From: a virus
Virus record (IMG/VR): IMGVR_UViG_3300018405_000018
Span: 1-63,174 of that record
Reading direction: 5' to 3' (one strand)
DNA: 63,174 nucleotides
In this document: piece after piece, positions 3,936 to 32,750 of the stretch
How the letters are laid out: each line of letters opens with the position of its first letter
Numbering within the stretch: position 1 is the first letter of the stretch
Made by a program: the position numbers and the translations under genes
The notes under the pieces: model-generated
Told to the model about the DNA's origin: nothing
The model's database searches: none
What the model saw: only the letters and a program-made list of their open reading frames with translations

Positions 3936-3943
3936 TATTTATG
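3936..3943 (-). promoter_or_regulatory. Late-type promoter CATAAATA
   Basis: CATAAATA on the minus strand, 30 bases before the fibre gene starting at 3905 and just outside the upstream gene's stop at 3958. Confidence 0.7.
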
Positions 3944-3957
3944 CTGGCTAACTTGCT

Positions 3958-4536: not shown

Positions 4537-4540
4537 GATG

Positions 4541-4927
4541 TTATCCTTGTAAAGCAGGCCAGTTGATTTCTGTTGGGAATCCTGGCTGTTTTGGCAAATC
4601 GCGAAGTGCTTTTCTGTATGTTTTCCAGTTTTCGGGAATCGGAGCGTTGATTTCACATGCTCTAACAACCACCCAGTCACTCTCTGCCAACAATCGGTTG
4701 CGTTGTTGGCGAGCAAACGAAGCAAGTTCCATCAAAGATGGCTGAGCAGCATCAATAACAATCGGTTCTCCCGTTGCAGGATCAGCAGAAAGCGTTTTCC
4801 CACGGTTGCTCAGTTCACGCATGATTTCTGCGTGTCGTGCTGGTGTAACATCAACAGCATCAAAAGGGATATCTGCGCTGAGAGCAGTGTCGTAAAAACT
4901 GTTCGTGGTTTGTGAATATTTGATCAT
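4541..4927 (-). CDS. Tail fibre assembly chaperone-like protein
   Basis: 128 residues from the ATG at 4927, which has AAGGA upstream; the frame is open for 22 more codons but that stretch would overlap the neighbour. The N terminus (MIKYSQTTNSFYDTALSADI) is typical of phage tail fibre assembly proteins, and the C-terminal half (RNRLLAESDWVVVRACE, then IPENWKTYRKALRDLP and GFPTEINWP) matches the phage tail assembly chaperone family, whose hallmark is R-x-x-L-L-x-x-S/T-D-W followed by W-x-x-Y-R-x-x-L-R-x-I/L. Such proteins help fibres trimerise. It sits between two paralogous short fibres in one unit, so it probably serves one or both. Confidence 0.85.
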   Translation of the reverse strand: MIKYSQTTNSFYDTALSADIPFDAVDVTPARHAEIMRELSNRGKTLSADPATGEPIVIDAAQPSLMELASFARQQRNRLLAESDWVVVRACEINAPIPENWKTYRKALRDLPKQPGFPTEINWPALQG

Positions 4928-4938
4928 TTGTCGTCCTT

Positions 4939-5790: not shown

Positions 5791-5817
5791 TGTTGTGTCC
5801 GTCCGTTAACTTTGTTG

Positions 5818-5825
5818 TATTTATC
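5818..5825 (-). promoter_or_regulatory. Late-type promoter GATAAATA
   Basis: GATAAATA on the minus strand, 27 bases before the ATG at 5790 and three bases past the stop of the upstream fibre gene. Confidence 0.7.
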
Positions 5826-5827
5826 GA

Positions 5828-7717
5828 TTACCGTTTTCCGACAAACACTTCAATCAGTCCAGCGTCGCCGTCAAAGTCTTCTAATGCAATTGCAACAACA
5901 GAGCCGATTACAGCGTGGGTGTCAGCAACAGCTGTTCCGTCACCATTGGAGACAAGAAAGTCGCCTTTGGTTACTTTACCAGTCACACGACAAGGAACGC
6001 GGCCAACGAGAGCGACAGCTACAACGTTTTCGCCTTCGCATTCGCTATTCATTAGATATGCTGGTTTGGTTGACACAATGCCGATTACTTTGAAGTCGTT
6101 TGGTGTGTTGGAAGCGGTTACTTCCTTTTCACCACCGATTCTGATCAATGTTCCAGGCTCATACGGCTGATCAGCAACATATTTTTCAGCCAAGTCAGCG
6201 TAACGAGCTGCTGTAGCTGTACCGTGAATAACACCACGTGGAACAATCACACCACCAGCAGCGTTCAGCTCAATCATGTCAGCAACATCGTTGTTCACAA
6301 ACAAACGAAGACGTTGAGCTTCACCGCCGTCGGCAGAGTAAGCGTCAATATAGCACTCATCGCCAAGACCACCAAATTGGTCATTTGGCCAGCTGATCCG
6401 ACGGCCTGCTTGTAGTCCGATTCCTGTACAGTTGCTGACAGAACCGTTTGTCAAGTTCGTGGCGTTCGTGGCGTTCTGAACGAATGTTGCACCGAGCGCT
6501 GTCGTCACGTCGGTTGCTGTTAGAGTGATTGCGCCTGTGCGGGTGTTGAATGAACTAACACCCGTAATAATTGTTTGCCAGCTCGGCGACGTGCCGTTAG
6601 TTGTCAGGAACTTGCCTGCATGTCCAGATTGGTTCGGTAGCACTGAAGCAGACGTTGCTGTTGCAACAGCAACTGGCAAGCCACGCTGGTTAAAGAACAC
6701 ACCTTCTGTAGACGACGTTGCAATGAACACCGGCTTGCTGATTGAAGATTGTGTTACAGGTTCAACGGTCGTCATCAGCCCTGCTGTTGAGTCGCTGAGG
6801 TAATACACAGCGCCTGGCATCAGGCCAGAAAGGCCGACAACCAAACCTTGTGTCGTTACTGTATACACTGTCGGCGATGCGTCCGAAATAATACCAAACA
6901 CCTGAGCGTTTGTTACGTTGTTGGCTTGAGCAAGAACATACGGTGATGCAGGGTTGCCCGTTGCACGAACAATCTGTCCACGTGTAAAACTGTTCGCCAT
7001 CTGAACTTCATCAGATGCGACGTATGCTGAGATCGACATCCAGCCAGCAGATACGCCATCAGACACCAACACATTACCAGAGTTGCCTGTTTGTGGCGGC
7101 AGAAGGTCATCAATTTCAATCTCCTGGGAAATCTCAACACCGCGCCAGTTGAAAAATAGGCCAAAGTTTGCACCGAGAGCAATAAACACAGGTTTACTGA
7201 TGTTACCTACAACGGTGGGTTCAACGGTTGTCATTGCACCCGGTGTTGTTGCTGATAGGAAGTATGCTGCACCCGGCGTCAGCGCTATGTTTGGGATATC
7301 AATGATACCGGACGTTGTCACTTCAATTGTGTTTGCGTCCGTTACCTCTGTGATGATACCAACAACGTCGGCTGTTGCATCAGATGCTGCAGAAGCAGGG
7401 ACATAAATTGATCCGTTGAACCGAACAATCGTTCCTACAGTCATTCCGTGGTTGGGTTGGCTTACGCGAGTTGCTGTACCACCTGAATCTGACCAAGATA
7501 CCTGCGAGCCATCCGTTTTAAGGAACATCCCTGCTTTATCCGATTGGTCCGGAAACGGATCACGTGTTACATCGATGATTGATTGCATGCCATTATCACG
7601 CTTGATGTACATTTTACCATCGTGTGTATTGATTGCGATTTCACCAAGTTGCAACTGTGCAACTGTGGGGATTTTGCCAGGCGTAGCGGAACGCTTAGAA
7701 AGAATTGTTTGTGACAT
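5828..7717 (-). CDS. Tail fibre protein, Mtd-like N terminus and DLAEKY C-terminal module
   Basis: 629 residues from the ATG at 7717, which has GGAG eight bases upstream; nine further codons are open upstream but have no ribosome site. The N terminus (LQLGEIAINTHDGKMYIKRD) is the same attachment module as in the 540-2450 protein. Several LP-x-Q-x-G...GKFLTTNGTSPSW units and three V-G-x-I-T/S-x-V-T-D half repeats follow, again as in that protein. The C-terminal 125 residues (ADLAEKYVADQPYEPGTL, IGIVSTKPAYLMNS, GRVPCRVTGKVTKGD) are homologous to the end of the 2508-3905 protein. It therefore looks like a recombinant of the two neighbouring fibre types. Confidence 0.78.
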   Translation of the reverse strand: MSQTILSKRSATPGKIPTVAQLQLGEIAINTHDGKMYIKRDNGMQSIIDVTRDPFPDQSDKAGMFLKTDGSQVSWSDSGGTATRVSQPNHGMTVGTIVRFNGSIYVPASAASDATADVVGIITEVTDANTIEVTTSGIIDIPNIALTPGAAYFLSATTPGAMTTVEPTVVGNISKPVFIALGANFGLFFNWRGVEISQEIEIDDLLPPQTGNSGNVLVSDGVSAGWMSISAYVASDEVQMANSFTRGQIVRATGNPASPYVLAQANNVTNAQVFGIISDASPTVYTVTTQGLVVGLSGLMPGAVYYLSDSTAGLMTTVEPVTQSSISKPVFIATSSTEGVFFNQRGLPVAVATATSASVLPNQSGHAGKFLTTNGTSPSWQTIITGVSSFNTRTGAITLTATDVTTALGATFVQNATNATNLTNGSVSNCTGIGLQAGRRISWPNDQFGGLGDECYIDAYSADGGEAQRLRLFVNNDVADMIELNAAGGVIVPRGVIHGTATAARYADLAEKYVADQPYEPGTLIRIGGEKEVTASNTPNDFKVIGIVSTKPAYLMNSECEGENVVAVALVGRVPCRVTGKVTKGDFLVSNGDGTAVADTHAVIGSVVAIALEDFDGDAGLIEVFVGKR

Positions 7718-11154: not shown

Positions 11155-14100
11155 TTACACTACTGTCCAGCCACCACTGAGGTAAATCTTCAGCGCAGAT
11201 GCTGTCGTATCGTACCATAGTTGGCCGATTGCTGGCGAAGTTGGAGCAGAGCCAGCAACATTAGCAATTGTGCCGCCAGGAGCACCAGCAGAACCAGTGA
11301 AGCCTGTTGAGCCAACCGCTGCGTCAACCCACTGTGAGCTGTCGCCATCGTTGAACCAAATCTTCAGACGACCGTTTGTGGTGTCAAACCACAGATCACC
11401 ATCAGCAGGCGACACAGGAGCAGTTGCACCTGTGAACGTTGACGCGTCAGCACCAGCAGAACCGGTGAAGCCAGCACTACCCGTGAAGCCAGCTCCTTGT
11501 GAACCGGTGAAACCGATCAAGCCTTGCGAGCCTGTGTAGCCTTGAACACCCTGGATACCTTGCAGACCTTGAACGCCCTGAGCACCCTGCGAACCAGTGT
11601 AGCCTTGGATGCCTTGTGGTCCCTGAGGGCCCTGAACACCTTGTTCACCTTGTGAACCTGTGAAGCCAGTTGGGCCAGCCACGGTAGAAGCAGAACCGGT
11701 AAAACCGATAGGACCCTGCGGGCCAGTTGCACCTTGAGGACCAGTGATACCAGTAGCACCTGATAGGTCGTTGACGTACGAGTACGATGTACCGTCCCAC
11801 AGATACAGACGGCTGTTTTCCGGATCGTTGACATTTGCTGTCTCAATGATAGCAAACTGACCTGCTGTGATGCCAGTAGGTGCTGTATCAGCGGTTAGAG
11901 CGGCAACAGAAGCGTACACTTTTGCAATCGTGAAGCCCATACCGGTGTCACCTTTGGAACCGGTAAAGCCAATCTCACCTTGTACACCCCGAACGCCTTG
12001 TGAACCTGTGAAGCCAGTAGCACCAACAGAACCTGTGAAGCCAGTAGCACCAACAGAACCTGTGAAGCCAACATCACCCTGAACGCCCTGAACGCCTTGT
12101 GAACCTGTGAAGCCAGTAGCACCAACAGAACCTGTGAAGCCAGTAGCACCTTGCGGGCCAGCGGCACCAGTGGAACCTGTTAGACCGATATCACCCCGAG
12201 AGCCTGTGTAGCCGAGTACACCCTGTGAACCAACATCGCCCTTAGAGCCTGTGTAGCCGATTGGGCCTTGAATCCCTTGTTCACCTTGAACGCCTTGAGG
12301 ACCGATTGGACCTCGAATCCCTTGTTCACCTTGTGAACCTGTGAAGCCAATAGAACCGGTGAAACCTGTTGGACCAGCAACTGTAGAAGCAGAACCTGTA
12401 AAGCCTGTTGGGCCTTGCGGACCTGTCAGACCAGCAGTACCTGACAGATCTGTTACGTATGAGTAAACAGAACCGTTCCACAGATATAACTTAGCATTGT
12501 CAGCGTCGTTGACGTTACCAGTTTCAATGATAGCAAACTGACCAGCAGAGATGCCAGTAGGTGTCGTATCAGCGGTTAGAGCGGCAACAGAAGCGTATGT
12601 CTTTGCGATTGTGAAGCCCATACCGGTGTCACCCTTGGAACCAGTAAAGCCTGTCGCACCTGCTACGCCAGTCGCACCTTGAGAGCCAGTGAAGCCGGTT
12701 GTGCCTTGTGAACCAGCCGGTCCAGCAGATCCTGTGAAACCTTGTTCGCCCTGAGAGCCTGTGAAACCGGTTGTGCCTGCAGCACCGGTTGCGCCTGTGT
12801 TGCCCTTAGAGCCTGTGTATCCGATAGGACCTTGAACGCCCTGGATACCCTGTACACCTTGAACACCCTGTACACCTTGAACGCCTTGTGAACCCGTGAA
12901 ACCGATAGAACCAGTGAAACCTGTTGGACCAGCAACAGTAGAAGCAGAACCAGTGAAACCAGCAGAACCAGTGAAACCTTGCAGACCTTGCTCACCAACG
13001 TCTCCCCTGGAGCCAGTGAAACCAGTTGTACCTTGTGGTCCTTGCAGGCCTTGAGAGCCTGTGAAACCAGTTGCGCCTTGCGGACCAGCGACGGTAGAAG
13101 CAGAACCTGTAAAGCCTGTATCACCCTTGGAGCCAGTATAACCAATCGCACCTTGTGGACCAGCAACGGTAGAAGCAGAACCAGCGTAACCGATCGGACC
13201 TCGCGGGCCAGTTAAGCCTGTTGTACCAGACAAATCTGTTACATATGTGTAGGCAGTGCCTGACCACAGATACAACTTAGCGTTGTCTGCGTCATTGACG
13301 TTGCCTGTTTCAATAACAGCAAACTGACCAGGAACGATTCCTGTCGGTGCTGTATCAGCGGTTAGAGCGGCAACAGAAGCGTACACTTTTGCAATCGTGA
13401 AGCCCATCCCTGTTTCGCCTTTGGAGCCAGTGAAGCCGATTGAACCAGTAAAACCAACAGAGCCTGTCAGACCAGTCGGTCCTTGAATACCTTGCTCGCC
13501 TTGTGAACCTGTGTATCCACGAGAGCCTGTAAAACCTTGCGCGCCTTCCGCACCGTTTGTACCGTTTGTACCAGCAGAGCCAGTGAAACCGGTTGCACCT
13601 TGAACGCCCTGTGAACCAGTGAAGCCGATTGGGCCTTGGGTTCCTTGAGGTCCTTGAATACCTTGTTCACCTTGAATGCCTTGAGCACCCTGCGGGCCCT
13701 GAATACCTTGAGAGCCAGTGAAACCGGTTGCACCTTGAGCACCCTGTGAGCCTGTGAAGCCAGCACCGGCTGGACCTATGGAACCTGTGAAACCAGTCTC
13801 ACCTTGGATGCCTTGAACACCCTGCGGGCCTTGAACACCCTGCGGGCCTTGTGAACCGGTGAAACCGATTGAACCAGTGAAGCCTGTTGGACCAGCAACA
13901 GTAGAAGCAGAACCAGTGAAACCAGTTGCACCCTGCGGGCCAGTGATGCCCTGTGTACCCGACAAATCTGTCACATACGAGTATGATGTGCCGTTCCACA
14001 GATATAACTTAGCGTTGTCTGCGTTTTGTGGATCACCTGTTTCAATAACAGCGAACTGGCCTGCAACAATCCCTGTAGGTGTCAGATCTGCTTCCAGAGC

Positions 14101-14463
14101 AGCAACAGATACGTACGACTTCGCGATGCTGAAGCCCATCCCTGTATCACCTTTGGAACCGGTGAAACCACGCTCGCCTTGCGCTCCGTTAGTGCCAGCT
14201 GAGCCTGTAAAGCCCTGAACGCCCTGAATACCTTGTGTACCCTGCGGGCCCTGTGGGCCTTGAACACCCTGTGGGCCTTGTGAACCGGTGAAACCAGCTA
14301 CACCCTGAATACCTTGCAGGCCCTGTGAACCGGTGAAACCGATTGAACCCTGATAACCTACTGTTGCGCCTGCCCAAGATGTGCCGTCCCATGTATAGAC
14401 TTTAGTGCCGATAGAGTAGATGTCACCAATCTGCGGACTAGCTGGAAAATTTAAAGCAGCCAT
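11155..14463 (-). CDS. Collagen-like GFTGS tail fibre, 1102 residues
   Basis: The N terminus (FPASPQIGDIYSIGTKVYTW) is a short globular module. The rest is an almost unbroken Gly-X-Y array built from GFTGSQG, GPQG, GIQG and GYTGSKG units. It is interrupted four times by a near-identical 63-residue non-collagen module (YASVAALTADTAPTG, GQFAIIETG, AKLYLW, ending in DLSG). Near the C terminus are W-F/Y-D-T-T-x-x-x-L-K-I-W/Y elements (LWFDTTNGRLKIWF, LWYDTTASALKIYL). Collagen-like phage fibres form long trimeric rods; the modules probably make beads along the rod. ATG at 14463 has AAGGGA upstream. It has its own late-type promoter and terminator. Confidence 0.85.
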   Translation of the reverse strand: MAALNFPASPQIGDIYSIGTKVYTWDGTSWAGATVGYQGSIGFTGSQGLQGIQGVAGFTGSQGPQGVQGPQGPQGTQGIQGVQGFTGSAGTNGAQGERGFTGSKGDTGMGFSIAKSYVSVAALEADLTPTGIVAGQFAVIETGDPQNADNAKLYLWNGTSYSYVTDLSGTQGITGPQGATGFTGSASTVAGPTGFTGSIGFTGSQGPQGVQGPQGVQGIQGETGFTGSIGPAGAGFTGSQGAQGATGFTGSQGIQGPQGAQGIQGEQGIQGPQGTQGPIGFTGSQGVQGATGFTGSAGTNGTNGAEGAQGFTGSRGYTGSQGEQGIQGPTGLTGSVGFTGSIGFTGSKGETGMGFTIAKVYASVAALTADTAPTGIVPGQFAVIETGNVNDADNAKLYLWSGTAYTYVTDLSGTTGLTGPRGPIGYAGSASTVAGPQGAIGYTGSKGDTGFTGSASTVAGPQGATGFTGSQGLQGPQGTTGFTGSRGDVGEQGLQGFTGSAGFTGSASTVAGPTGFTGSIGFTGSQGVQGVQGVQGVQGIQGVQGPIGYTGSKGNTGATGAAGTTGFTGSQGEQGFTGSAGPAGSQGTTGFTGSQGATGVAGATGFTGSKGDTGMGFTIAKTYASVAALTADTTPTGISAGQFAIIETGNVNDADNAKLYLWNGSVYSYVTDLSGTAGLTGPQGPTGFTGSASTVAGPTGFTGSIGFTGSQGEQGIRGPIGPQGVQGEQGIQGPIGYTGSKGDVGSQGVLGYTGSRGDIGLTGSTGAAGPQGATGFTGSVGATGFTGSQGVQGVQGDVGFTGSVGATGFTGSVGATGFTGSQGVRGVQGEIGFTGSKGDTGMGFTIAKVYASVAALTADTAPTGITAGQFAIIETANVNDPENSRLYLWDGTSYSYVNDLSGATGITGPQGATGPQGPIGFTGSASTVAGPTGFTGSQGEQGVQGPQGPQGIQGYTGSQGAQGVQGLQGIQGVQGYTGSQGLIGFTGSQGAGFTGSAGFTGSAGADASTFTGATAPVSPADGDLWFDTTNGRLKIWFNDGDSSQWVDAAVGSTGFTGSAGAPGGTIANVAGSAPTSPAIGQLWYDTTASALKIYLSGGWTVV
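11758..11945 (-). repeat. 188-bp fibre module, copy in 1102-residue fibre (C-proximal)
   Basis: Encodes GMGFTIAKVYASVAAL...YLWDGTSYSYVNDLSG. One of six dispersed copies, four of them in this gene. Confidence 0.8.
12439..12626 (-). repeat. 188-bp fibre module, second copy from the C-terminal end
   Basis: Encodes the same module with AKTYASVAALTADTTPTG and LYLWNGSVYSYVTDLSG; flanked on both sides by GFTGS repeats. Confidence 0.8.
13225..13412 (-). repeat. 188-bp fibre module, third copy from the C-terminal end
   Basis: Encodes AKVYASVAALTADTAPTG and LYLWSGTAYTYVTDLSG. The DNA is strongly conserved with the copies at 11758 and 12439 over the threonine/alanine stretch. Confidence 0.8.
13957..14144 (-). 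repeat. 188-bp fibre module, N-proximal and most diverged copy in this gene
   Basis: Encodes GMGFSIAKSYVSVAALEAD and LYLWNGTSYSYVTDLSG, differing from the other copies mainly in its first third. Confidence 0.75.
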
Positions 14464-14555: not shown

Positions 14556-16037
14556 TTAACCATTTAAGGTAGCAGCAAACACAAAATCAACGTTGTTCAA
14601 TGAAGTATCAGCAACAGACGGTCCTACCAGCGTTAGAAGATCGCCTTGTGCGACTACGATCTCTGTTGAGGCTGAAAAAGTTCCAGTCGTGCTGCCAGCA
14701 CCAAACGTTACAGTACCTAGCTGAACATTGTGTCTCCGGAATGAAAATACACGTTGTGCAGTAGGACCTGCATCCGCACGGGCTAACGAGCCTGCAAAGT
14801 TAGCCGGAATTGTGAACGAGCGTGGTGACAGAAACCGTAAAATCTGCTGGTTAGTTGTTGTAAGACCACCAATCACGCTAGCAAACACGTCGTAAGGCAC
14901 ACCTTGAATTGATCCTGCTGAGCCTGTGTAGCCGATCGAACCTGTGTAGCCAGTTAGACCAATTGTACCAATCGCTGCGTCTACCCATTGTGCACTGTCG
15001 CCGTCAACGTAGTAAATCTTCAGTTGGCCGTCAACCGATGACCACCACTGATCGCCGGGTGCTGGATTAGCAGGAGGAGCAACGTCAATAAACGTTACAC
15101 CACGTGACCCCGTAAAGCCGAGTTCACCTCGCGAGCCAGTAAAACCCACGCCTTGAGAGCCAGTGAAACCAACAGAACCTGTGAAACCTGTCGGGCCAGG
15201 AACTTCAGATGCAGACCCAGTGAAACCTATGGATCCAGTGAAACCTATGGATCCAGTGAAACCCACAGATCCAGTGAAACCCTCAACACCTTGAGATCCT
15301 GTAAAGCCCCGCGATCCTGTAAAGCCTGTTGGACCAGCAACCGTCGACGCAGAACCGGTGAAGCCGATATCACCGCGGGAGCCTGTGAACCCAGCGCCAG
15401 CAGAGCCAGTGAAACCGATTGAGCCTGTAAAACCTAGATTCCCTCGTGAACCAGTGAAACCGCGAGAACCGGCAAAACCTATTGCACCCTGCGAACCTGT
15501 AAAACCTATAACACCAGCAGAGCCTGTGAAGCCGACACTACCCGTGAAACCTACAGAACCAGTAAATCCTGACCCTCCACCACCGCCTGTTGCACTGATA
15601 GTTATCGTTTGTGGATCTGCTAGGTTGTCTGTTGTAATTGTTACGTTGTTACCTGCAACTAATCTCAACGTATCGAGTCCTACTGCAGTCAATGTTCCCT
15701 GCCCACCAACCTCAATAAACTTAAACGTTGAATTCATGCCAACCTTGACAGCACCGCCGCCGAGATCGGTTATGTCAAACCCTGAAGCTGTATCAAAGCG
15801 CAACGATGTTGTAGTAATGTCACCCGGAAGCACAGTCATCCCGTTGATCAAGCCGACAGTTAAAGCAGCTGACGAACCAGTAAACCCGATAACACCACGA
15901 GATCCAGTGTATCCAACAGGACCTTGGACGGTTCCAGTTGTTAGCGCCCAACCCTTGCCGTTGTATATCCACGATCTCCCACCAAGAGAGTAAACATCAC
16001 CTACAGATGGCGATGAGGGAAAATCAATAAAAGACAT
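14556..16037 (-). CDS. Collagen-like GFTGS tail fibre with globular C-terminal domain
   Basis: 493 residues from the ATG at 16037; the longer frame begins at a TTG with no better ribosome site. The N terminus (FPSSPSVGDVYSLGGRSWIY) parallels the 1102-residue fibre. A globular module (SGFDITDLGGGAVKVGMNST, QGTLTAVGLDTLRLVAG) is shared with the 947-residue fibre. The Gly-X-Y region of GFTGS units and a WWSSVDGQLKIYYVDGDSAQ element follow. The last 115 residues (RFLSPRSFTIPANFAG to DFVFAATLNG) form a beta-rich tip of a type often seen at the end of phage collagen-like fibres. It is the last gene of a four-gene unit. Confidence 0.82.
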   Translation of the reverse strand: MSFIDFPSSPSVGDVYSLGGRSWIYNGKGWALTTGTVQGPVGYTGSRGVIGFTGSSAALTVGLINGMTVLPGDITTTSLRFDTASGFDITDLGGGAVKVGMNSTFKFIEVGGQGTLTAVGLDTLRLVAGNNVTITTDNLADPQTITISATGGGGGSGFTGSVGFTGSVGFTGSAGVIGFTGSQGAIGFAGSRGFTGSRGNLGFTGSIGFTGSAGAGFTGSRGDIGFTGSASTVAGPTGFTGSRGFTGSQGVEGFTGSVGFTGSIGFTGSIGFTGSASEVPGPTGFTGSVGFTGSQGVGFTGSRGELGFTGSRGVTFIDVAPPANPAPGDQWWSSVDGQLKIYYVDGDSAQWVDAAIGTIGLTGYTGSIGYTGSAGSIQGVPYDVFASVIGGLTTTNQQILRFLSPRSFTIPANFAGSLARADAGPTAQRVFSFRRHNVQLGTVTFGAGSTTGTFSASTEIVVAQGDLLTLVGPSVADTSLNNVDFVFAATLNG

Positions 16038-16076
16038 AGTTGGCAGCCCCAATCAAACGTGTTTGCAAGCTGCTAA

Positions 16077-18799: not shown

Positions 18800-21643
18800 T
18801 TATGTGTAAACCAAACAAATCACAGCATTGACTGCACCGCCTGCTTGCACAACGTCAACGGTCAGGAAATCTGTTATGGCCATAGGGACATTGACAGTAT
18901 AGTTGGGTGATCTGAACTCATTCGCTTGCACGCGTGGTAGTGTTGTCGGCCCGCCAAAAATAGACGTTCCGTTTACTTTTATATCAATGACAGTTGCTCT
19001 GTTTCCTGGTGTTCCAACGCTGAAATATACTTTTGTTAGAACGATAGGATCGTGAGGATACCACCGCAACGTTCCTGTGCTCTGCACAACAGGCCCGTGG
19101 ATGTTGTATTTTGACACTGTTGTTGCTGGCAATCCTTGAGATCCTGTATACCCCAATGTACCTGCATTGGCGAGTTCTACCCACTGATTGGTGTTGCCAT
19201 CAAACATGTAGAAATACTGAATGCCAGTGGTTGAGTCTATCCATATATCGTTCAACTCGGCACTCAAAGGAGGTTGATCAGCCAGATGCGTGGTTATGGA
19301 TCCTTTCGAGCCTGTAAACCCAGTAGCCCCTCTTGAACCAGTAAAGCCAAGATCACCACGTGAACCGGTAAAACCAAACGATCCTGTAAAACCAAACGAT
19401 CCTGTAAAACCAAACGATCCTTGTGAACCAACAAAGCCTGTTATACCTTGAGATCCTGTGAAGCCACGCGAACCAGTAAAGCCAGCAGGGCCTGGTTCGG
19501 TTGATGCCGAACCGGTGAAGCCAGCACTACCCGTGAAGCCAACAGAACCTGTAAAACCGATTGAACCAGTGAAGCCCAAATCACCACGGTCACCTCGTGA
19601 ACCGGTAAAGCCAGCGCCGGCAGAACCTGTGAAACCTGTTGAGCCAGTGAAGCCTTGAATACCTTGTTGTCCGGCAGAACCTGTAAAACCGACCCCGGCG
19701 GGGCCTTGCGAACCGGTGAAACCTGTATCACCCCGAGAGCCTGTGAAACCAGCGCCTGCTGAACCTGTGAAACCGACAGAACCAGTATATCCTAAATCTC
19801 CGCGCTCACCTTGTGAACCTGTGAAACCAGCGCCTGCTGAACCTGTGAAACCGACTGAGCCAGTGAAGCCTGTTGCTCCATCTTGACCGTTTATACCATC
19901 AGCACCACGTGAACCTGTGTAACCCTCCGATCCTGTGAAACCAACCAATCCGCGAGAACCAGTGAAGCCAATGTTACCTGGATTACCTTGAACACCCCGC
20001 GAACCAGTAAAACCGATGCCGCCCTGCGACCCTGTAAAACCTGTTGCACCAACTGAGCCTGTAAAGCCCGTATCACCACGAGGACCCTCTACACCTGCAC
20101 TACCAGTGTAACCGAATGTACCCTGCGAACCGGTGAAACCGATGTCACCACGGGGGCCCTCTACGCCTGCACTACCTGTATAACCAAATGCACCCTGTGA
20201 TCCTGTGAAACCTACTGGACCGATAATACCTTGGGCACCAGATAGATCGCTCGTATACACATATTGCGCACCATCCCACAAATAGATTCTGCTGTTTTCA
20301 GGATTGTTAACGTCGCCTGTCTCAATAATCGCAAACTGGCCTGCAACGATTCCAGTCGGTGCTGTGTCTGCAGTTAATGCAGCGACAGAAGCATACACTT
20401 TTACAACCGCAAATCCTAATCCAGTATCACCTTTGGAACCTGTGAAGCCAACTTCACCTTGTGAACCAGTAAAACCAATGGAGCCTGTGTAGCCGAGTTC
20501 ACCTCGAGATCCAGTGAAGCCTGTTGAACCTGTAAAACCAGGCAAGCCTTGATCGCCCTCAGGGCCTTGCACACCTGCACTACCTGTGAAACCGCGCGAA
20601 CCGGTAAAACCAACACCCTGCGAACCGGTGTAACCAGTCTCACCTTGAATACCTTGAACACCCTGCGAACCGGTGTAACCAGTCTCACCTTGAATACCTT
20701 GAACACCCCGCGAACCAGTGTAACCCGTGTCGCCTTTATCGCCTGTTTTTGCAAACGTAATAATGACGTCTTCACCGTCAACAAACGTCAACTGTCCTGA
20801 AAGAGCGCCAATAACAAACTCAAAATATCCGGAATGATCGATCACATTAGTGATTGTAAACATTGCGAAGTTCGTGTTGTCGAACTTTTTCGCAATGTGG
20901 AAATGACCTTTGATTGCACTTGTGCTTTGTGCAATCATCAAAAAGAAAGTTCTGGCGCTTGTGCCACCGTCGTCTGCATCATCGATGTACACACGTGTTG
21001 CTGATGTGATGTTTGGTGTGTCAAACCTAACTTTACCGACACCCGGATCTTCTGCTGTTGTCAGTGACGAATATGTGTAGTCGAAAGCCGCGCCACCAAA
21101 GTTACCGTCTTGTCCAGCGGAACCGGTGTATCCGGTTGAGCCTGGTGGCAGTGATGCGCTAATCGTTAGCGTTTGCGGCGATGCTGTGTTGTTTGTGGTG
21201 ATCGTGACGTTGTCGCCAGCAACAATCTTTAGTGTATCAAGACCGACAGCAGTTAGCGTCCCTTGTCCGTTCACTTGAATGAACTTGAACGTTGAGTTCA
21301 TCCCAACTTTAACCTCACCGTTTCCAAGATTTGTTAGGCCAAAACCAGAATCGGTGTCAAAGCGAAGCATGCTAACGTTTGCAATCTCGCCTGATTTTGC
21401 GTTTGCGCTGTTAATCAGACCGACAGAAACACTTCCGGATGGAACAGTTCCCCAACTGACGGTTGTTCCATCAGTTGTTAAAAACTTACCCCCATTGTTC
21501 GTCTGTAATGGCAATAAATTATTAGTCGCATCTTGCAGTGTTGTGGCGCCTGTACCACCGTGCTCAATAGGGACTACGTCACCCGTTCTAAATCGTGTGA
21601 GTGATCCGTCTTGGGAAAGTTTTAACGGTTTGATGTCTGCCAT
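18800..21643 (-). CDS. Collagen-like GFTGS tail fibre, 947 residues
   Basis: The N terminus (KLSQDGSLTRFRTGDVVPIE) and GGTGATTLQDATNNLL plus GGKFLTTDGTTVSW are fibre attachment modules. Next comes the globular module shared with the 493-residue fibre (KVGMNSTFKFIQVNGQGTL), then a separate beta-rich domain of about 120 residues (FDYTYSSLTTAEDPGVGKVR, HFHIAKKFDNTNFAMFTI). A long Gly-X-Y region of GFTGS, GYTGS and GVQG units follows, interrupted by one copy of the YASVAALTADTAPTG module. The C-terminal 85 residues (RWYHPHDPIVLTKVYFSV to VNAVICLVYT) form a globular beta tip. Single-gene unit behind its own late-type promoter. Confidence 0.83.
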   Translation of the reverse strand: MADIKPLKLSQDGSLTRFRTGDVVPIEHGGTGATTLQDATNNLLPLQTNNGGKFLTTDGTTVSWGTVPSGSVSVGLINSANAKSGEIANVSMLRFDTDSGFGLTNLGNGEVKVGMNSTFKFIQVNGQGTLTAVGLDTLKIVAGDNVTITTNNTASPQTLTISASLPPGSTGYTGSAGQDGNFGGAAFDYTYSSLTTAEDPGVGKVRFDTPNITSATRVYIDDADDGGTSARTFFLMIAQSTSAIKGHFHIAKKFDNTNFAMFTITNVIDHSGYFEFVIGALSGQLTFVDGEDVIITFAKTGDKGDTGYTGSRGVQGIQGETGYTGSQGVQGIQGETGYTGSQGVGFTGSRGFTGSAGVQGPEGDQGLPGFTGSTGFTGSRGELGYTGSIGFTGSQGEVGFTGSKGDTGLGFAVVKVYASVAALTADTAPTGIVAGQFAIIETGDVNNPENSRIYLWDGAQYVYTSDLSGAQGIIGPVGFTGSQGAFGYTGSAGVEGPRGDIGFTGSQGTFGYTGSAGVEGPRGDTGFTGSVGATGFTGSQGGIGFTGSRGVQGNPGNIGFTGSRGLVGFTGSEGYTGSRGADGINGQDGATGFTGSVGFTGSAGAGFTGSQGERGDLGYTGSVGFTGSAGAGFTGSRGDTGFTGSQGPAGVGFTGSAGQQGIQGFTGSTGFTGSAGAGFTGSRGDRGDLGFTGSIGFTGSVGFTGSAGFTGSASTEPGPAGFTGSRGFTGSQGITGFVGSQGSFGFTGSFGFTGSFGFTGSRGDLGFTGSRGATGFTGSKGSITTHLADQPPLSAELNDIWIDSTTGIQYFYMFDGNTNQWVELANAGTLGYTGSQGLPATTVSKYNIHGPVVQSTGTLRWYPHDPIVLTKVYFSVGTPGNRATVIDIKVNGTSIFGGPTTLPRVQANEFRSPNYTVNVPMAITDFLTVDVVQAGGAVNAVICLVYT
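20237..20424 (-). repeat. 188-bp fibre module, copy in 947-residue fibre
   Basis: Encodes GLGFAVVKVYASVAAL...IYLWDGAQYVYTSDLSG; same length and placement between GFTGS arrays as the four copies in the 1102-residue fibre. Confidence 0.78.
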
Positions 21644-21678: not shown

Positions 21679-21686
21679 TATTTATG
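21679..21686 (-). promoter_or_regulatory. Late-type promoter CATAAATA
   Basis: CATAAATA on the minus strand, 35 bases before the ATG at 21643; sits back-to-back with the plus-strand sigma70-like promoter at 21710. Confidence 0.7.
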
Positions 21687-21709: not shown

Positions 21710-21738
21710 TTGTCTTGGCAGAAAGTTTGTGGTACAAT
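21710..21738 (+). promoter_or_regulatory. Sigma70-like promoter for the glycosyltransferase gene
   Basis: TTGTCT, a 17-base spacer and TACAAT (4/6 and 5/6 to consensus), 28 bases before the ATG at 21767. No NATAAATA motif lies on this strand here, unlike the other plus-strand genes. Confidence 0.65.
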
Positions 21739-21766
21739 AACGCACGCTGTAGAACAAGGAGATTTT

Positions 21767-24700
21767 ATGACAAAAGTAGCACTGATTGACGTAATCGGGC
21801 TGACGTATGATGGAACAACGCTGTCCAAACGAGGTTTGGGTGGGTCTGAATCCGCTGTAATCTTGATGAGCAAAGAACTTGCTGCCCTCGGTTTTGATGT
21901 TACTGTTTTCAACAACTGTATTGACCGCGAAGCACAGGAAGGTGTGTATGACGGTGTCAAATACATTGACATCAACCGTTTGCGTCAGCCATACGATTAT
22001 CAGTTTGATGTTGTAATCTCGTCTCGCACCGTATTTCCATTTGTTCGCGAGCAAGATCAGCCTCATATTCAGTATGACTGTCGCCATTTCCGCAAACTTG
22101 CTGAAGCAGCGAAGTTAAAGATTGTCTGGCTGCACGATACGTTCTGTCAAGGTGACCACATTCTCGAGCATATGCTCGTCACCGGTGCGATTGACGAAAT
22201 CTTTACACTGTCCGACTTCCATACAACATATGTTGGCACATGCGATCACGGTCGCAAGCGTATGATGGAAGTGACGAAGCGAAAAATCTTTATGACAAGG
22301 AACGGCGCAATGCTGTATCCTGGTGAGGTGGATATTAAGGCAAAAGACCGCAATCTTTTCGTATATAACGCTTCCGTAACGAAGGGTATGATCCCTCTCG
22401 TCAATACAGTATGGCCAATCGTTAAACGGCAAATCCCTGACGCCAAACTCAAGGTGATTGGTGGTTACTACAGGTTCCGTGAAAATGCTGCTCCTGACGA
22501 GCAAGAGAAAACTTGGCGACAGATGGTTGCTGACCCAAAGTATGCTGATCTCGGGATTGAGTTCACTGGGGTTATCAAGCAAAGTGAGATTGCCGAGATC
22601 CTCAAACAGGCATCGTTTATGATCTATCCGCCAGCGTTTCCTGAAACGTTTGGCATTTCGTCGCTAGAAAGCCTGCTGTACAACACCCCGTTGATTACCA
22701 GCCGTTTTGGTGCTTTGGAAGAGACAGCGATTGATCAGGCAAGTTACTTTACAGACTATTCGGCAACACCAAATGGTCTGTACCCGTGGATTGATGAGAA
22801 TGCACAGTGTGTTCGGATCGCTGAGCTAGCCATCCATGCTTACCACAACCCATATCTCCACCAGCAGAAGATGTACTACTGCAACATCGTCAAGGGAATA
22901 CACGGGTGGGACAGTGTTGCTCTTCAGTGGAAGCAGCACTTATACAACAAACTTGGTCTGTATCTGTCTGCTGACGAGTATCGCAAGGTTAGTTATGTTA
23001 ATGCGCGTGTTCGCGAAGTATTTGGCCGTCGGTTTTCTAACCCTGACGATATCTACTATCCTCGCAACGCTCAACAACGGATTGTTGTTGTATCTCCTGT
23101 CTATAACGCAGAGAAATACGTCGAGAAGTGTATCCGTTCTGTTGCCTCACAGGATTACGACAACTGGGTTATGTATGTTGTAGACGATCGTTCTACTGAC
23201 ACGACTTTTGCAACTGCAAAGAAGGCAGCGCAGATTTACGGACGCGATCGTGTTCACGTTATCCGCAACGAAGAAAACAAAGGCGCGGTTTACAATCACG
23301 TGAGCACAATCCTGGAACATTGTAAACCAGACGACGTTGTGATGTTGATTGACGGCGATGACGCTCTTGTTGCGGACAACCAAATCTTCCACAAGTATAA
23401 CAACTTGTATGACGGAACAACGGACTTCACGTATGGTTCGTGCTGGTCTATGGTTGATAGCATTCCGCTTGTTGCTCAACCATATCCAGAGCACATTAAA
23501 CAAGCAAGAGCATATCGCCAGCACAAATTTAACTGGAATATGCCGTACACTCATCTGCGAACATTTAAGGCTTCGTTGATGTTAGATAACGTTGACTTGT
23601 CAATGTTCCAAGACAGCAACAGGAAGTGGTACAAGGCAGGTGGTGATGGTGCTGTGTTCTACGCTATGATCGAGCGCGCAAGACCGGAGGCTGTTAAGGC
23701 CATTCAGGATATCGTCTATCTGTACAATGACATCAACCCGCTAAATGATTACAAAATCAACGGCGGCGAGCAAACGAGAGCAGCAAATGAAATCCTGAAC
23801 AAAAAGCAAGGTATTGCTCCATCACAATCAGCATTGAAAACACAACTTACAACAACAAAGCCTATTATGAACAAAACGATTCTAATCGCTATTCCAACAA
23901 ACAAATATATTGAACCTGACACGTTCAAGTCAATCTACGACTTAGAGATCCCAGAAGGATACACAACAACGTTCCAGTATTTCTTCGGCTATCAAGTAGA
24001 CCAAATCCGCAACCTGATCGCTCACTGGGCAGAGAGGTTTGATTATCTGTTCGCTGTTGACAGCGATATGTCGTTCCCGCCTGATACGTTGAAGAAGCTG
24101 CTCGCTCACAACAAGGATGTTGTTTCTGGCCTGTACATCCAGCGGAAGCCGGGCCAACACATCCTTGAGATTTACCGGAACGGACGAAATGTTCCGTATC
24201 AGGACATTAAGGGTCTAGGGCTGGTTGAGGTTGACGGCTGTGGGTTCGGATGTGTTCTCGTCAACAGCGATGTCATCCGCAAGATTGGCTATCCGCAGTT
24301 TGTCTATAAATCAGCGCTTGACCACAAGGACACGTTCAGTGAAGACACGTACTTCTGTATGAAGGCAAAGCAACACGGTTTCCGCATTTGGGCAGACACA
24401 ACAATCCAGTGTAAGCATCACGGTAGTTCCGTATTTGAGGTTGACAACACGATTGAGCAGACGCCGGCAGACCGTCTCCGCGAACTCGGTCGTATCATGC
24501 TGTTGCCAAAGCCACACGTTGACCATCTGTTCTATATGGCAAGCTGCGGGATTAAACCAAAGGTGATTTATGACATCGGCAGTTGTGTTCTCCACTGGAC
24601 GAGTGTTGCTAAGCAAGTGTGGCCTGATGCTGAGTTCTGTCTGTGCGAGGCAATGCCAGAAGTAGAGCCAATCTACAACGAGAACGGGATCGTCAACTAC

Positions 24701-25141
24701 AACCTCGGCGTATTGTCTGATGTTGATGGCAAAGAACTGACATTCTACCAGAATACCACTCACCCTGGTGGTAACTCATACTACAAAGAGAACTCGGAAG
24801 TCAATCCTGTTGCTGATACGTATTTTAATGAAAAGCATGCTCGCAAGGTCAAAGCACGGACGCTGGATGCTGTTGTTGCTGAGAAGAAATGGCCGTTGCC
24901 TGATCTAATCAAGATGGATGTCCAAGGTGCTGAAATGGACGTGCTAAAAGGCGCCACAAACACGTTACAACAATGCGAACATCTGATAATGGAGCTCCAG
25001 AATGTTGAGTACAACAAAGGCGCTCCACTGAAAGATACTGTGATCGACTATCTGAAGACGATTGGTTTTGAGCCAGTTGGCGGAGGATTATTCTGTGCAA
25101 ACGGCGTAGACGGAGACTATCACTTCCGTAGAGTGAAATAA
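21767..25141 (+). CDS. Four-domain glycosyltransferase / FkbM-type methyltransferase fusion
   Basis: 1124 residues from the ATG at 21767, preceded by a perfect AAGGAG. Domain 1 (about 1-395) is GT4-like: GGSESAV at 25-31 and FPETFGISSLESL with the E-x7-E pattern. Domain 2 (about 437-640) is a GT2 domain: VVVSPVYNAEKYVEKCIRSV, VVDDRSTD, and DGDD near 528. Domain 3 (about 701-900) is a second GT-A-like domain with DSDMSFPPD near 765 and a VDGCGFGCVLVNSDVI segment. Domain 4 (about 930-1124) is FkbM-like: YDIGSCVL and KMDVQGAEMDVLKGA near 1048. Known roles of these families are sugar transfer and O-methylation of glycans. Substrate is unknown: phage fibres or host surface glycans are both possible. 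It stands alone on the plus strand with its own promoter and terminator. Confidence 0.85.
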   Translation: MTKVALIDVIGLTYDGTTLSKRGLGGSESAVILMSKELAALGFDVTVFNNCIDREAQEGVYDGVKYIDINRLRQPYDYQFDVVISSRTVFPFVREQDQPHIQYDCRHFRKLAEAAKLKIVWLHDTFCQGDHILEHMLVTGAIDEIFTLSDFHTTYVGTCDHGRKRMMEVTKRKIFMTRNGAMLYPGEVDIKAKDRNLFVYNASVTKGMIPLVNTVWPIVKRQIPDAKLKVIGGYYRFRENAAPDEQEKTWRQMVADPKYADLGIEFTGVIKQSEIAEILKQASFMIYPPAFPETFGISSLESLLYNTPLITSRFGALEETAIDQASYFTDYSATPNGLYPWIDENAQCVRIAELAIHAYHNPYLHQQKMYYCNIVKGIHGWDSVALQWKQHLYNKLGLYLSADEYRKVSYVNARVREVFGRRFSNPDDIYYPRNAQQRIVVVSPVYNAEKYVEKCIRSVASQDYDNWVMYVVDDRSTDTTFATAKKAAQIYGRDRVHVIRNEENKGAVYNHVSTILEHCKPDDVVMLIDGDDALVADNQIFHKYNNLYDGTTDFTYGSCWSMVDSIPLVAQPYPEHIKQARAYRQHKFNWNMPYTHLRTFKASLMLDNVDLSMFQDSNRKWYKAGGDGAVFYAMIERARPEAVKAIQDIVYLYNDINPLNDYKINGGEQTRAANEILNKKQGIAPSQSALKTQLTTTKPIMNKTILIAIPTNKYIEPDTFKSIYDLEIPEGYTTTFQYFFGYQVDQIRNLIAHWAERFDYLFAVDSDMSFPPDTLKKLLAHNKDVVSGLYIQRKPGQHILEIYRNGRNVPYQDIKGLGLVEVDGCGFGCVLVNSDVIRKIGYPQFVYKSALDHKDTFSEDTYFCMKAKQHGFRIWADTTIQCKHHGSSVFEVDNTIEQTPADRLRELGRIMLLPKPHVDHLFYMASCGIKPKVIYDIGSCVLHWTSVAKQVWPDAEFCLCEAMPEVEPIYNENGIVNYNLGVLSDVDGKELTFYQNTTHPGGNSYYKENSEVNPVADTYFNEKHARKVKARTLDAVVAEKKWPLPDLIKMDVQGAEMDVLKGATNTLQQCEHLIMELQNVEYNKGAPLKDTVIDYLKTIGFEPVGGGLFCANGVDGDYHFRRVK

Positions 25142-25166
25142 AAAAGGGGCCCGAAGGCCCCTTTTT
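25141..25166. terminator. Bidirectional rho-independent terminator
   Basis: Stem GGGGCC/GGCCCC with CGAA loop, A5 on the left and T5 on the right, between the convergent glycosyltransferase gene and the 727-residue fibre gene. Confidence 0.88.
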
Positions 25167-29387: not shown

Positions 29388-32300
29388 TTACATCAACGAA
29401 TAACGTGTAATCCACGGCGATGCTGCAGTAAAGCTACCTGATTGGCCCATAGTTACCACACCTCCTGTGTTCGTTACAGTGGTGCCTGTAATAGCTTGAA
29501 CGCCGCCGGCACCATTATATCTGGTGATTACAGGTACCATCATTGTTGTCAGGCTTGCGTCTCCGTTTGGATCGGTGTATCGAACGAAGAAAGCGGTGCC
29601 TGACGGAATGAAAGAGGCTGGTGTGTGTATTGTTATTGTCTGTAGTTTAAACGTGGCTGGAATATTATCAAACCTGACTGTATCTCCGAACACACCCGCT
29701 TGATCAAGACGAACGGTAATCGCGTCGATGTCTGTTTGTGATCCGTAACCAACAAGATGGATGTTTGCAGTTTGATTCCCTGCAGCGTTCTGTATCGTCA
29801 TTTTACGTAGCACGACTGAAGCTCCGCCTGATCCGCCACCACCAGGAACGTTAACTGTAACAGCCCCGCCGCTATTTGTTGCAGTAACACCCGCACCCGT
29901 GAAGTTGATTGACGTAGCGCCTGTCGTCAACGAAGTGCCTTCGTCCAGAACAGCCAGAGCGCTTCCGCCGCCTCCACCAGGAATGTTGACAATCACACCA
30001 TCTGTTGACGATGTTGCTGTAACGCCAGCACCTGTGAAGTTTATGAACGTTGGAGCGGTGTGAACAACAGTTCCTTCGTCTTGAACGGCAAAGTTTGTTG
30101 TTCCAGACGAGCCGGTGAAGCCTTGAATACCCTGCGATCCAGTGAAGCCAGTCGCACCAGCAGGACCTGCAGAACCTGCAGAACCTGTAAAACCAGTTGG
30201 GCCAGCAGGTCCTGCAACCGTAGAGGTGGAGCCCGTGAAACCAGCACTGCCTGTGAAACCTACACCAGCACTGCCTGTGAAACCTTGTGAGCCATTGAAA
30301 CCTTGAATACCCTGTTGACCAGCGCTACCTGTAAAGCCGGCACCAGCACTACCTGTGAAACCAACTGAACCAGTGAAACCGTTCGTGCCTGCACTACCAG
30401 TAAAGCCGGCTGCACCTGCGCTACCAGTGAAGCCTGCACCAGCAGAACCAGTGAAACCAACTGAGCCGGCTGGTCCTGCAACGCCTGCACTACCAGTGAA
30501 ACCAGTGGCGCCAGCGGAGCCTGCAGGACCTGCGCTACCAGTGAAGCCTGTGGCGCCAGCAGAACCAGTAAAGCCTTGAATGCCTTGTTGACCTGCCGAA
30601 CCCGTGAAGCCAGCGCCGGCACTGCCTGTGAAACCAACTGAACCGGCAGGACCAGCTGCTCCTGCAGAACCTGTAAAGCCGGTTGCACCGGTGGAACCTG
30701 TAAAGCCGGTTGCACCAGTCGTTCCAGCTGCTCCTGCAGAACCAGTGAAGCCCGTAGCACCAGCACTACCTGTAAAGCCAGCACCAGCACTACCCGTAAA
30801 GCCAGTAGGTCCAGCAACTGTTGATGCAGAACCAGTGAAACCTGTTGCACCTTGAGGTCCTTGTGGACCAGTCACACCTTGTGTTCCAGAAAGGTCGGTT
30901 ACATATGAGTAAGCGGTGCCATTCCACAGATACAGTTTAGCATTATCTACATCGTTGACGTTGCCTGTTTCAATAATCGCAAACTGGCCTGATGCAATGC
31001 CAGTAGGCGCTGTGTCTGCAGTTAATGCAGCGACAGAAGCGTATACTTTTGCAATCGTGAATCCAATACCAGTGTCGCCTTTGGAACCTGTGAAACCGAT
31101 TGCACCTTGTGAGCCCGTAAAACCTACAGAACCTGCCGAGCCTGTGAAGCCTGTGCCTGCCGAGCCTGTGAAGCCTTGAATACCTGCAGTTCCTGCAGAA
31201 CCAGTGAAACCAGCACTGCCGGTGAAACCTGCTGTGCCTGATGGGCCTGCTGGTCCAGTGGACCCAGTAAAGCCTATTGCACCAGAAATACCTTGTGAAC
31301 CTGTGAAACCTGCATCACCACGCGAACCAGTGAAGCCTGCACCAGCAGAACCAGTGAAGCCTTGCGCACCAGGAGCGCCGTTTGTTCCAGCGCTTCCTGT
31401 GAATCCTGTGTCTCCACGAGAGCCTGTGAACCCAGCGCCAGCGGACCCAGTGAAACCGATTGAACCTGTGAATCCTGTTGCGCCTTGAGCGCCTGCCGAG
31501 CCTGTGAAACCAAATCCTGACGGTCCTTGCGAGCCAGTAAAACCACGCTCACCGGACAGACCTTGTGCACCATCTGCTCCAGCAGAACCGGTGAAGCCTT
31601 GGGATCCTGTGTAGCCTTGAGAGCCCGGACCAGTCACAACAGAAGCAATCTGTGCGTCAACGTATGCTTTATTAACAACTGATGTTGGCAATAATGGTGC
31701 ATCAACAATATCAATCTTCAATCCAGCAGGAACAAAAATGTCACCTGTCGTAACACCTGCCAGTTCAGTAATCCCACCACCTGTTCCTGGAGCACCACCG
31801 AGCATTGTTGTTGATGCTCGCATCATAATGGCGTGACGATCGATCACTGTTGCGACGGGTACTGGCGGAATCGCTGGTGTTAATGTTAAGGCACCGTATT
31901 CATCAACGTATAAAGGAGCGTTGATTTCTGCACCAGCAGCAAGCCAGTCCCAAGCACCATTGTAGATAACACCATCCAACGCAACGTTAATGAAATCGCC
32001 CGCTGCAGCATCAAACTCAATGATACCGTACGTCACCTGGGTAATGTTATGCGGGCTTGCAGCGATAACTTTGTTGTAGTCGGAGAACTGAACAATCGTG
32101 TGAGACGGCATTGATTCTTCTGCTTCTGCACGAAGTTGTACCGATCCGAGCTTAACTTGTGTGCTGTTAGCAATCCCTGTAACAGCATAGTCTTCTGTTG
32201 TGAAGTATGTGCCGTCTTTCTTCTTTAGAACGCCACCAAAGTTGTCATAGATCAGTGCACCCGCGTGAGTTGGACGGATGATACCAACTTGTGTGCCAGT

Positions 32301-32750
32301 AAACACGCCAACGTTGTTGCTCATACTGACAAACACGCCACCCTGCGTCAGTTGCGCTGCGAACACGCGAATCACACGCTGCCATCTGTTAGCAGCCGCA
32401 ACATACACTTTCATCTGGCCAGACGATGTGTCAAACCAATGTTGGTCATTTGCTGCGTTTGCTGGTGGGGTTGGGCCTTCAACAGGCTCTAACAACGTGT
32501 GTCCGAACGAACGAGCACCAGTGACAAGGTGCATATCCCAGTACAGCCAGTAGTTTGTACCAGAAACAAAAGGACCAGCCCACGCATTTGCTACAGTTTG
32601 TTTTTCAGAAAGCAAATAATCAGACGATCCGTCAGCAAATGCAACCAATACGGTGTCGTTAGGCGGGACTTGCAAAGATACTGCTGATCCAGAACGAGAT
32701 AAAAAGTTCGCTGGTGCACGGACCAAGCCTTGTCTAAAGTCGATTAACAT
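29388..32750 (-). CDS. Fibre with baseplate-anchor-like N terminus and collagen-like GFTGS shaft (1120 aa)
   Basis: The N-terminal 330 residues (LIDFRQGLVRAPANFL, YWLYWDMHLVTGARSFG, NDQHWFDTSSGQMKVY, IRVFAAQL) are homologous to the start of the 1334-residue neighbour, pointing to a shared virion attachment domain. About 420 residues of GFTGSAG repeats follow, interrupted by one YASVAALTADTAPTG module. Next come two copies of a LDEGTSLTTGATSINFTGAG element, which recurs as VQDEGTVVHTAPTFINFTGAG. The final 130 residues (VVLRKMTIQNAAGNQTANIH to SPWITRYSLM) form a globular tip. First gene of a three-gene unit behind the only fully canonical TATAAATA in the fibre block. Confidence 0.83.
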   Translation of the reverse strand: MLIDFRQGLVRAPANFLSRSGSAVSLQVPPNDTVLVAFADGSSDYLLSEKQTVANAWAGPFVSGTNYWLYWDMHLVTGARSFGHTLLEPVEGPTPPANAANDQHWFDTSSGQMKVYVAAANRWQRVIRVFAAQLTQGGVFVSMSNNVGVFTGTQVGIIRPTHAGALIYDNFGGVLKKKDGTYFTTEDYAVTGIANSTQVKLGSVQLRAEAEESMPSHTIVQFSDYNKVIAASPHNITQVTYGIIEFDAAAGDFINVALDGVIYNGAWDWLAAGAEINAPLYVDEYGALTLTPAIPPVPVATVIDRHAIMMRASTTMLGGAPGTGGGITELAGVTTGDIFVPAGLKIDIVDAPLLPTSVVNKAYVDAQIASVVTGPGSQGYTGSQGFTGSAGADGAQGLSGERGFTGSQGPSGFGFTGSAGAQGATGFTGSIGFTGSAGAGFTGSRGDTGFTGSAGTNGAPGAQGFTGSAGAGFTGSRGDAGFTGSQGISGAIGFTGSTGPAGPSGTAGFTGSAGFTGSAGTAGIQGFTGSAGTGFTGSAGSVGFTGSQGAIGFTGSKGDTGIGFTIAKVYASVAALTADTAPTGIASGQFAIIETGNVNDVDNAKLYLWNGTAYSYVTDLSGTQGVTGPQGPQGATGFTGSASTVAGPTGFTGSAGAGFTGSAGATGFTGSAGAAGTTGATGFTGSTGATGFTGSAGAAGPAGSVGFTGSAGAGFTGSAGQQGIQGFTGSAGATGFTGSAGPAGSAGATGFTGSAGVAGPAGSVGFTGSAGAGFTGSAGAAGFTGSAGTNGFTGSVGFTGSAGAGFTGSAGQQGIQGFNGSQGFTGSAGVGFTGSAGFTGSTSTVAGPAGPTGFTGSAGSAGPAGATGFTGSQGIQGFTGSSGTTNFAVQDEGTVVHTAPTFINFTGAGVTATSSTDGVIVNIPGGGGGSALAVLDEGTSLTTGATSINFTGAGVTATNSGGAVTVNVPGGGGSGGASVVLRKMTIQNAAGNQTANIHLVGYGSQTDIDAITVRLDQAGVFGDTVRFDNIPATFKLQTITIHTPASFIPSGTAFFVRYTDPNGDASLTTMMVPVITRYNGAGGVQAITGTTVTNTGGVVTMGQSGSFTAASPWITRYSLM
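30885..31072 (-). repeat. 188-bp fibre module, copy in 1120-residue fibre
   Basis: Encodes GIGFTIAKVYASVAAL...LYLWNGTAYSYVTDLSG, nearly identical to the copies in the 1102-residue fibre almost 17 kb away. Confidence 0.78.

Follow-up and report, generated by a model that had tools for sequence, protein, structure and literature searches.

A phage gene fusing three glycosyltransferase domains and a methyltransferase as a putative O-glycosylation enzyme of collagen-like tail fibres

What does a phage gain from a single gene carrying three glycosyltransferase (GT) domains and a methyltransferase among its tail-fibre genes? The question is raised by virus record IMGVR_UViG_3300018405_000018, a stretch of 63,174 bases (hereafter the window) which probably represents part of the genome of a large myovirus, since it encodes a contractile-tail sheath and a terminase whose nearest relative is that of the Xanthomonas jumbo phage XacN1 (51%). 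The gene, here called the cassette, lies in a block with many tail fibres, and both its neighbours are on the opposite strand: upstream a collagen-like tail-fibre gene, the two divergent starts being 123 bases apart, and downstream a gene of 727 codons without a clear family. We consider it probable that the cassette encodes a modular phage O-glycosylation enzyme, which builds a short methylated glycan on threonine or serine of the phage's own collagen-like fibres. The computations established the domains, the integrity of their motifs, motif conservation, co-occurrence with a fibre type, promoter class and fold resemblance.

The proposed acceptor lies in four nearby fibre proteins (Table 1). 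Their Gly-X-Y repeats are proline-poor, with 53 prolines at X and 3 at Y among the 567 triplets counted in runs of at least 6, and they carry a recurrent pentapeptide, G[FY]TGS: G[FY]TG is followed by serine in 156 of 156 cases, and the third residue of G[FY]xG is threonine in 156 of 161. All 4 glycine, 4 threonine and 6 serine codons are used in the motif. Because the residues are invariant despite this free codon use, the motif seems to be kept at the protein level, like an enzyme recognition site. A first-pass annotation, made from the sequence alone, had overlooked this likely acceptor in the neighbouring fibres. We found no G[FY]TGS in 981 triplets of six public phage records that encode collagen-like proteins and lack the full cassette, a hand-picked and not a random set, from which a seventh record (L034) was dropped as it had no Gly-X-Y run of the required length.

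Association of the motif array with the cassette was then assessed in viral contigs picked solely by two spaced motif copies, using only the 48 of at least 25 kb. The cassette protein matched in 37 of them and strongly (E under 1e-100) in 35, a count that includes near-copies (G035, G036 and G040 share one score, and G037 and G067 likewise). The cassette was found in none of 34 contigs of at least 25 kb with GPQ-repeat collagen, a set that omits L038 and L041 as already present in the array scan, and lone, weaker domain matches occurred in 4 of the 34. Neither array nor cassette was detected in 29 terminase-related contigs, selected from 80 by a length of at least about 16 kb and in many cases shorter than 25 kb; one carries a lone third domain. 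Fisher tests of the array contigs against the GPQ and terminase controls gave 1.5e-12 and 3.5e-11, respectively, uncorrected for relatedness. In the reverse direction, the array was present in 22 of 28 cassette records, namely the window and 27 of the 32 relatives' records (L006, L018, L022, L028 and L029 were omitted as near-copies or short).

Several observations weigh against a dedicated fibre enzyme. The strong cassette is absent from 13 of the 48 array contigs, two of them longer than 115 kb; nine of the 13 hold 12 to 170 motif hits and four fewer than 12, and a profile search of all 13 retrieved only lone or weak domains, in four contigs. In G068, GT4-, GTA- and GT2-like matches inside 2.2 kb are perhaps a distant cassette. 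Furthermore, the array stands divergent within 3 kb upstream in only 20 of the 56 clusters with enough flank; it is on the same strand in 6 more of the 56 and convergent downstream in 3 of 50. Adjacency is thus clade-bound and tight in only part of the family. Array and cassette could also share a lineage and not a function, the control contigs being other phages. It is improbable, however, that the array fibres and the cassette merely travel in one phage lineage while the enzyme targets another virion protein such as capsid or sheath: the relatedness of many array contigs, near-copies included, and the partial adjacency suit such co-inheritance, whereas the 65 clusters (85% identity) with rapid module turnover argue against it, and a pentapeptide invariant despite free codon change would need a cause of its own. 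The contig L267, a close terminase relative (84%), was considered as a possible natural empty site but is uninformative, because it stops short of the fibre block.

The cassette protein itself is read from a stop-free frame. A TTG at position 21707 is a possible alternative start; the ATG is favoured, since the Shine-Dalgarno sequence fits it. The first-pass annotation had described one chain of 1124 residues with three GT domains and an FkbM-type methyltransferase, and the intact frame, the Pfam and NCBIfam profiles and the AlphaFold2 model bear this out. Domain 1 matches PF00534 (GT4; 44.1 bits, cut-off 26.4), with E293 and E301 in 31 of the 31 rows having the column, and domain 2 matches PF00535 (GT2; 82.2 bits, cut-off 23.3), with D529, D531, D532 and D627 in 31 of 31 rows, G530 and G626 slightly variable and some flanking positions varying too. 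For domain 4, PF05050 (65.3, cut-off 22.7) and TIGR01444 (68.4, cut-off 37.7) agree on FkbM, and D936, G938, D1051, G1054 and E1056 occur in 22 of 22 rows; a sequence search of the PDB with this domain was empty at E 0.01. Domain 3 has no Pfam family above cut-off, and this third GT was recognised by profile search only through phrog_1574 (function unknown; E 3e-20). Its fold, together with D765, D767, E859, D860 and H884 in 30 of 30 rows, identifies it as a GT-A enzyme, and in a wider 30-row set both aspartates of DxD, the aspartate of ED and the histidine are invariant. The same annotation had named two observations that would overturn it, missing catalytic residues in two or more domains, or homologues with the domains as separate unrelated genes and frameshifts here. 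Neither was made: the motifs are intact and near-invariant in relatives, and a frameshift or artefact was ruled out, as the frame is uninterrupted both in the window and in many relatives; many other relatives have the gene split near the linker, at the start of the GT-A open reading frame, into a clean pair with a 4-base overlap, so that separate homologues stand beside many intact fusions.

Phage glycosyltransferases can glucosylate DNA, yet a role of the cassette in base modification is very improbable: no DNA glucosyltransferase family appears among the Pfam and PHROG matches, and such a role would account neither for three GT domains with an FkbM methyltransferase nor for the link to fibres. 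The AlphaFold2 model of the whole protein, from a 34-row alignment, consists of four globular domains and one disordered linker (mean predicted local distance difference test, pLDDT, 88; 94 for domain 3 alone). Its structural matches include two-domain polymerases (heparosan synthase 2, chondroitin polymerase) and GT4 enzymes of the MshA/BshA type; the O-GlcNAc transferase GtfA appears at rank 49. For domain 3, the best solved neighbour is STIV A197 (Z 19.6, 159 aligned residues, root-mean-square deviation 2.0), a protein of an archaeal virus that, unlike the cassette, has a single domain; the human collagen-modifying enzymes COLGALT1 and LH3 follow, and mimivirus R699 is also among the neighbours. 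The nearness of collagen-modifying enzymes speaks for fibre modification. The matched parts are the N-terminal part of COLGALT1 (residues 47-298) and residues 293-526 of LH3, of which the latter seems to be an accessory, non-catalytic GT-like domain; this counts against the proposed function, as a shared fold proves no acceptor. Domain 3 gave no match to PF01755, the GT25 collagen galactosyltransferase family, at E up to 1; PF01755 is matched by extra C-terminal domains of the relatives L009 and L019. That standalone relatives of domain 3 are fibre enzymes was rejected as a general rule: the archaeal virus vir323 (L035, 6001-8140) has a lone phrog_1574 glycosyltransferase two genes before a threonine-rich collagen-like tail protein, but none of 42 viral loci with lone distant relatives has the array.

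When T4-like phages carry glycosyltransferases in their host-recognition region, these are usually read as modifiers of the host surface. By analogy the cassette might extend and methylate a host glycan (lipopolysaccharide, LPS, core or O-chain) and so block superinfection or help release, which is the main alternative, though a rather unlikely one. Its GT2 and GT4 domains are near polysaccharide enzymes, some relatives have nucleotide-sugar genes beside the cassette, and the glycosyltransferases near fibres of pelagimyophages were interpreted as LPS modifiers in the consulted part of PMC7029224. The protein, however, has no membrane segment (highest 19-residue Kyte-Doolittle hydropathy 1.51), and hence none of the helices by which GtrB-type O-antigen conversion enzymes handle an undecaprenyl-linked donor, and its GT2 domain had only a 33-bit PHROG match. 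Moreover, a cassette strongly associated with G[FY]TGS fibres, yet not with the other collagen type, is hard to reconcile with a host glycan as acceptor.

Transcription signals bear on the same alternative. The promoter in the window matches the sigma70 consensus at 9 of 12 positions, which is chance level when taken alone. Among 55 distinct upstream regions of the family, the window included, at least 11 of 12 matches occur in 25 (shuffles: mean 0.31, maximum 2), and all 12 positions match in 9 (shuffles: 0); the opposite strand reaches at least 11 of 12 matches in 1 of the 55. The sequence NATAAATA, which we take to be the T4-type late motif, has 25 copies on the minus strand of the window and 2 on the plus strand; between 540 and 62842 on the minus strand it stands 15-59 nt before many structural genes, a late promoter signal of T4 type in a genome resembling those of jumbo phages. 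ATAAATA lies at most 80 nt upstream of 22 of the 40 window genes, the divergent fibre gene included, and is missing within 80 nt upstream of the cassette. Across the family, 23 of the 55 upstream regions carry the late motif on the opposite strand, against 5.6 in shuffles, and 15 carry it in sense, against 4.9; some of these sense copies form a palindrome with an overlapping opposite copy. The sigma70 counts in the family and the distribution of the late motif make it probable that host-type promoters drive the enzyme and that the fibre is a late product. This division suits an enzyme awaiting its substrate, but sigma70 promoters also point to early action and would suit an early host-surface enzyme too. 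At the other end of the gene, a hairpin of 11 pairs (-19 kcal/mol with its flank, z -4.1) probably serves both convergent genes; a mechanical terminator scan missed it, probably by treating the A- and T-runs as part of the stem. The claim that the cassette forms an independent transcription unit is supported, as a promoter and a strong terminator are present; the unit lies within the late fibre block but lacks the late motif of 22 of the 40 genes.

Table 1. Positions of the cassette, its domains and signals, and the collagen-like fibre genes in the window.
Feature	Position	Strand	Basis
Cassette gene, 1124 aa, GT4-GT2-GT-A-FkbM	21767..25141	+	translation, Pfam, NCBIfam, AlphaFold2
Domain 1, GT4 (GT-B fold), residues 1-420; E293/E301 (E-x7-E), K206, G25-G26	21767..23026	+	
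Domain 2, GT2 (GT-A fold), residues 436-680; D474, D529-x-D531-D532, D627	23072..23806	+	
Disordered linker, residues 682-700	23810..23866	+	AlphaFold2
Domain 3, GT-A fold, residues 701-893; D765-x-D767, E859-D860, H884	23867..24445	+	
Domain 4, FkbM-type methyltransferase, residues 900-1124	24464..25138	+	
Shine-Dalgarno AAGGAG, 5 nt before cassette ATG	21756..21761	+	sequence
Sigma70-like promoter TTGTCT-17-TACAAT, TG before -10	21710..21738	+	
T4-type late motif CATAAATA, 43 nt before divergent fibre gene	21679..21686	-	
Terminator hairpin with A- and T-runs, symmetric	25141..25166	.	fold energy
Divergent collagen-like fibre, 947 aa, 44 G[FY]TGS, proposed acceptor	18800..21643	-	
Collagen-like fibre, 1120 aa, 41 G[FY]TGS, proposed acceptor	29388..32750	-	
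Collagen-like fibre, 1102 aa, 48 G[FY]TGS, proposed acceptor	11155..14463	-	
Collagen-like fibre, 498 aa, 23 G[FY]TGS, proposed acceptor	14556..16052	-	

The four-domain fusion is real but not unique, being one of the architectures found in a common viral family. Scanning of viral contigs gave 32 relatives and later 116 copies in 65 clusters (85% identity), all with a GT4-GT2 core; nearly all copies include GTA, and the GT4-GT2-GTA core is near constant. A second GT2, a second GT4, FkbM, a GT25-type domain and another methyltransferase are gained or lost, and four cassettes (L203, L204, L205 and L211) have two tandem GT4 domains ahead of GT2 and GTA. A tree of 62 GT4-GT2 parts, which left out two cut-off cassettes and L007 and has Shimodaira-Hasegawa-like approximate likelihood ratio (SH-aLRT) support only, implies at least 9 changes for the second GT2, 16 for the FkbM label and 6 for the split. 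The FkbM count leaves out open-ended rows and covers window-like FkbM only; since the gene next to the L005 cassette encodes a more distant FkbM protein, not every FkbM loss is a loss of methylation. No relative was found in 84,980 cellular species genomes at close-relative sensitivity, so that a cellular origin has no support, and among isolated phages no record of the phage collection covered 80% of the cassette protein.

Several neighbouring genes deserve mention. Beside the L027 cassette (3204-5940) and likewise in L033 lie an epimerase and a cupin, with a PfkB kinase-cytidylyltransferase-like fusion as in HldE in L027, and a GDP-mannose dehydratase-like gene adjoins the L031 cassette (3917-4945); a supply of donor sugar is possible, perhaps of heptose in L027. 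In L011 (6988-10584) and L013 (6456-11152), the cassette region is followed by genes whose products begin with a radical-SAM-like CxxxCxxC motif. In two cassette-free cyanophages, an annotated prolyl 4-hydroxylase lies near collagen-like genes (S-CAM7, L352, 18535-19131) and a 2-oxoglutarate-Fe(II) oxygenase near a lone domain-3 relative (S-SCSM2R, L034, 8673-9284), perhaps an alternative way to stabilise phage collagen. Elsewhere in the window, a 103-residue remnant (46877-47188, plus strand) with 54% identity to the C-terminal part of a relative's 252-residue gene is probably a decayed mobile endonuclease, as the relative's gene looks like a putative homing endonuclease.

The cassette may be compared with known systems, the SgtA/BclA3, mimivirus L230 and PBCV-1 A064R systems above all. 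In the excerpts consulted, the Bacillus BclA exosporium protein is likewise collagen-like and bears a glycan with an O-methylated terminal sugar. It differs in being cellular, and its glycosylation is presumably encoded by separate genes. According to the consulted part of PMC7157674, Clostridioides difficile SgtA is encoded beside bclA3 and adds N-acetylglucosamine to threonine of the collagen repeats; shared features are a glycosyltransferase gene adjoining that of a collagen-like surface protein (123 bases apart in the window, and within 3 kb in the 20 divergent clusters), threonine at Y of Gly-X-Y and a glycan that can be capped. BclA3, in contrast, is a cellular spore protein with GPT repeats and SgtA only starts the glycan, whereas here three GT domains and a methyltransferase share one chain and the motif is G[FY]TGS. 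Mimivirus L230, a lysyl hydroxylase and glucosyltransferase, is similar in being a viral enzyme that modifies proline-poor collagen-like proteins of the same virus; it targets lysine or hydroxylysine in a giant virus of eukaryotes, and the consulted part of PMC9614988 names no methyltransferase for it. The same part describes PBCV-1 A064R as building and methylating the end of the virion glycan. We liken it to the cassette by domain make-up, at least two GT domains joined to a methyltransferase in a single chain; A111/114R also has several transferase domains, and damage to domains alters the glycan. The differences are that A064R has two GT domains and that the glycan is a capsid N-glycan of an algal virus.

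That the protein could build and cap a methylated glycan in one polypeptide, as first suggested, is supported in its logic by four fused domains with intact motifs; the acceptor, the sugar types, the order of steps and the purpose we infer as follows. A soluble multi-step enzyme, transcribed from a sigma70 promoter of host type either earlier than the late fibre genes or together with them, would act on the phage's own collagen-like tail fibres. In the cytoplasm, on still unfolded fibre chains, one GT domain would put the first sugar on threonine (or serine) of G-[FY]-T-G-S, the remaining GT domains would lengthen the glycan, and the FkbM domain would O-methylate it and thereby form a cap. Such a glycan would likely stabilise the proline-poor triple helices, protect the long fibres and vary their surface through gain, loss and exchange of modules. 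A bolder proposal, to which we give slightly less than even credence, is that G-[FY]-T-G-S is a dedicated sequon, present in tens to hundreds of copies in collagen-like fibres and read by one modular multi-transferase in a self-contained phage system, and that shuffling of GT and methyltransferase modules rewrites the glycan and with it what the phage adheres to or evades. Among titles and abstract beginnings of open-licence PubMed Central papers we found none on such a system or motif, subscription papers and preprints being outside the search.

If true, glycosylation of these fibres would explain how long, proline-poor collagen-like fibres of phages are stable without hydroxyproline, and would provide a bacterial-virus counterpart to the collagen glycosylation of animals and mimivirus. 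A compact one-chain enzyme and a short sequence tag would furthermore become available for glycosylated collagens made in bacteria. Moreover, a class of phage glycosyltransferases usually ascribed to host LPS modification would acquire a testable role.
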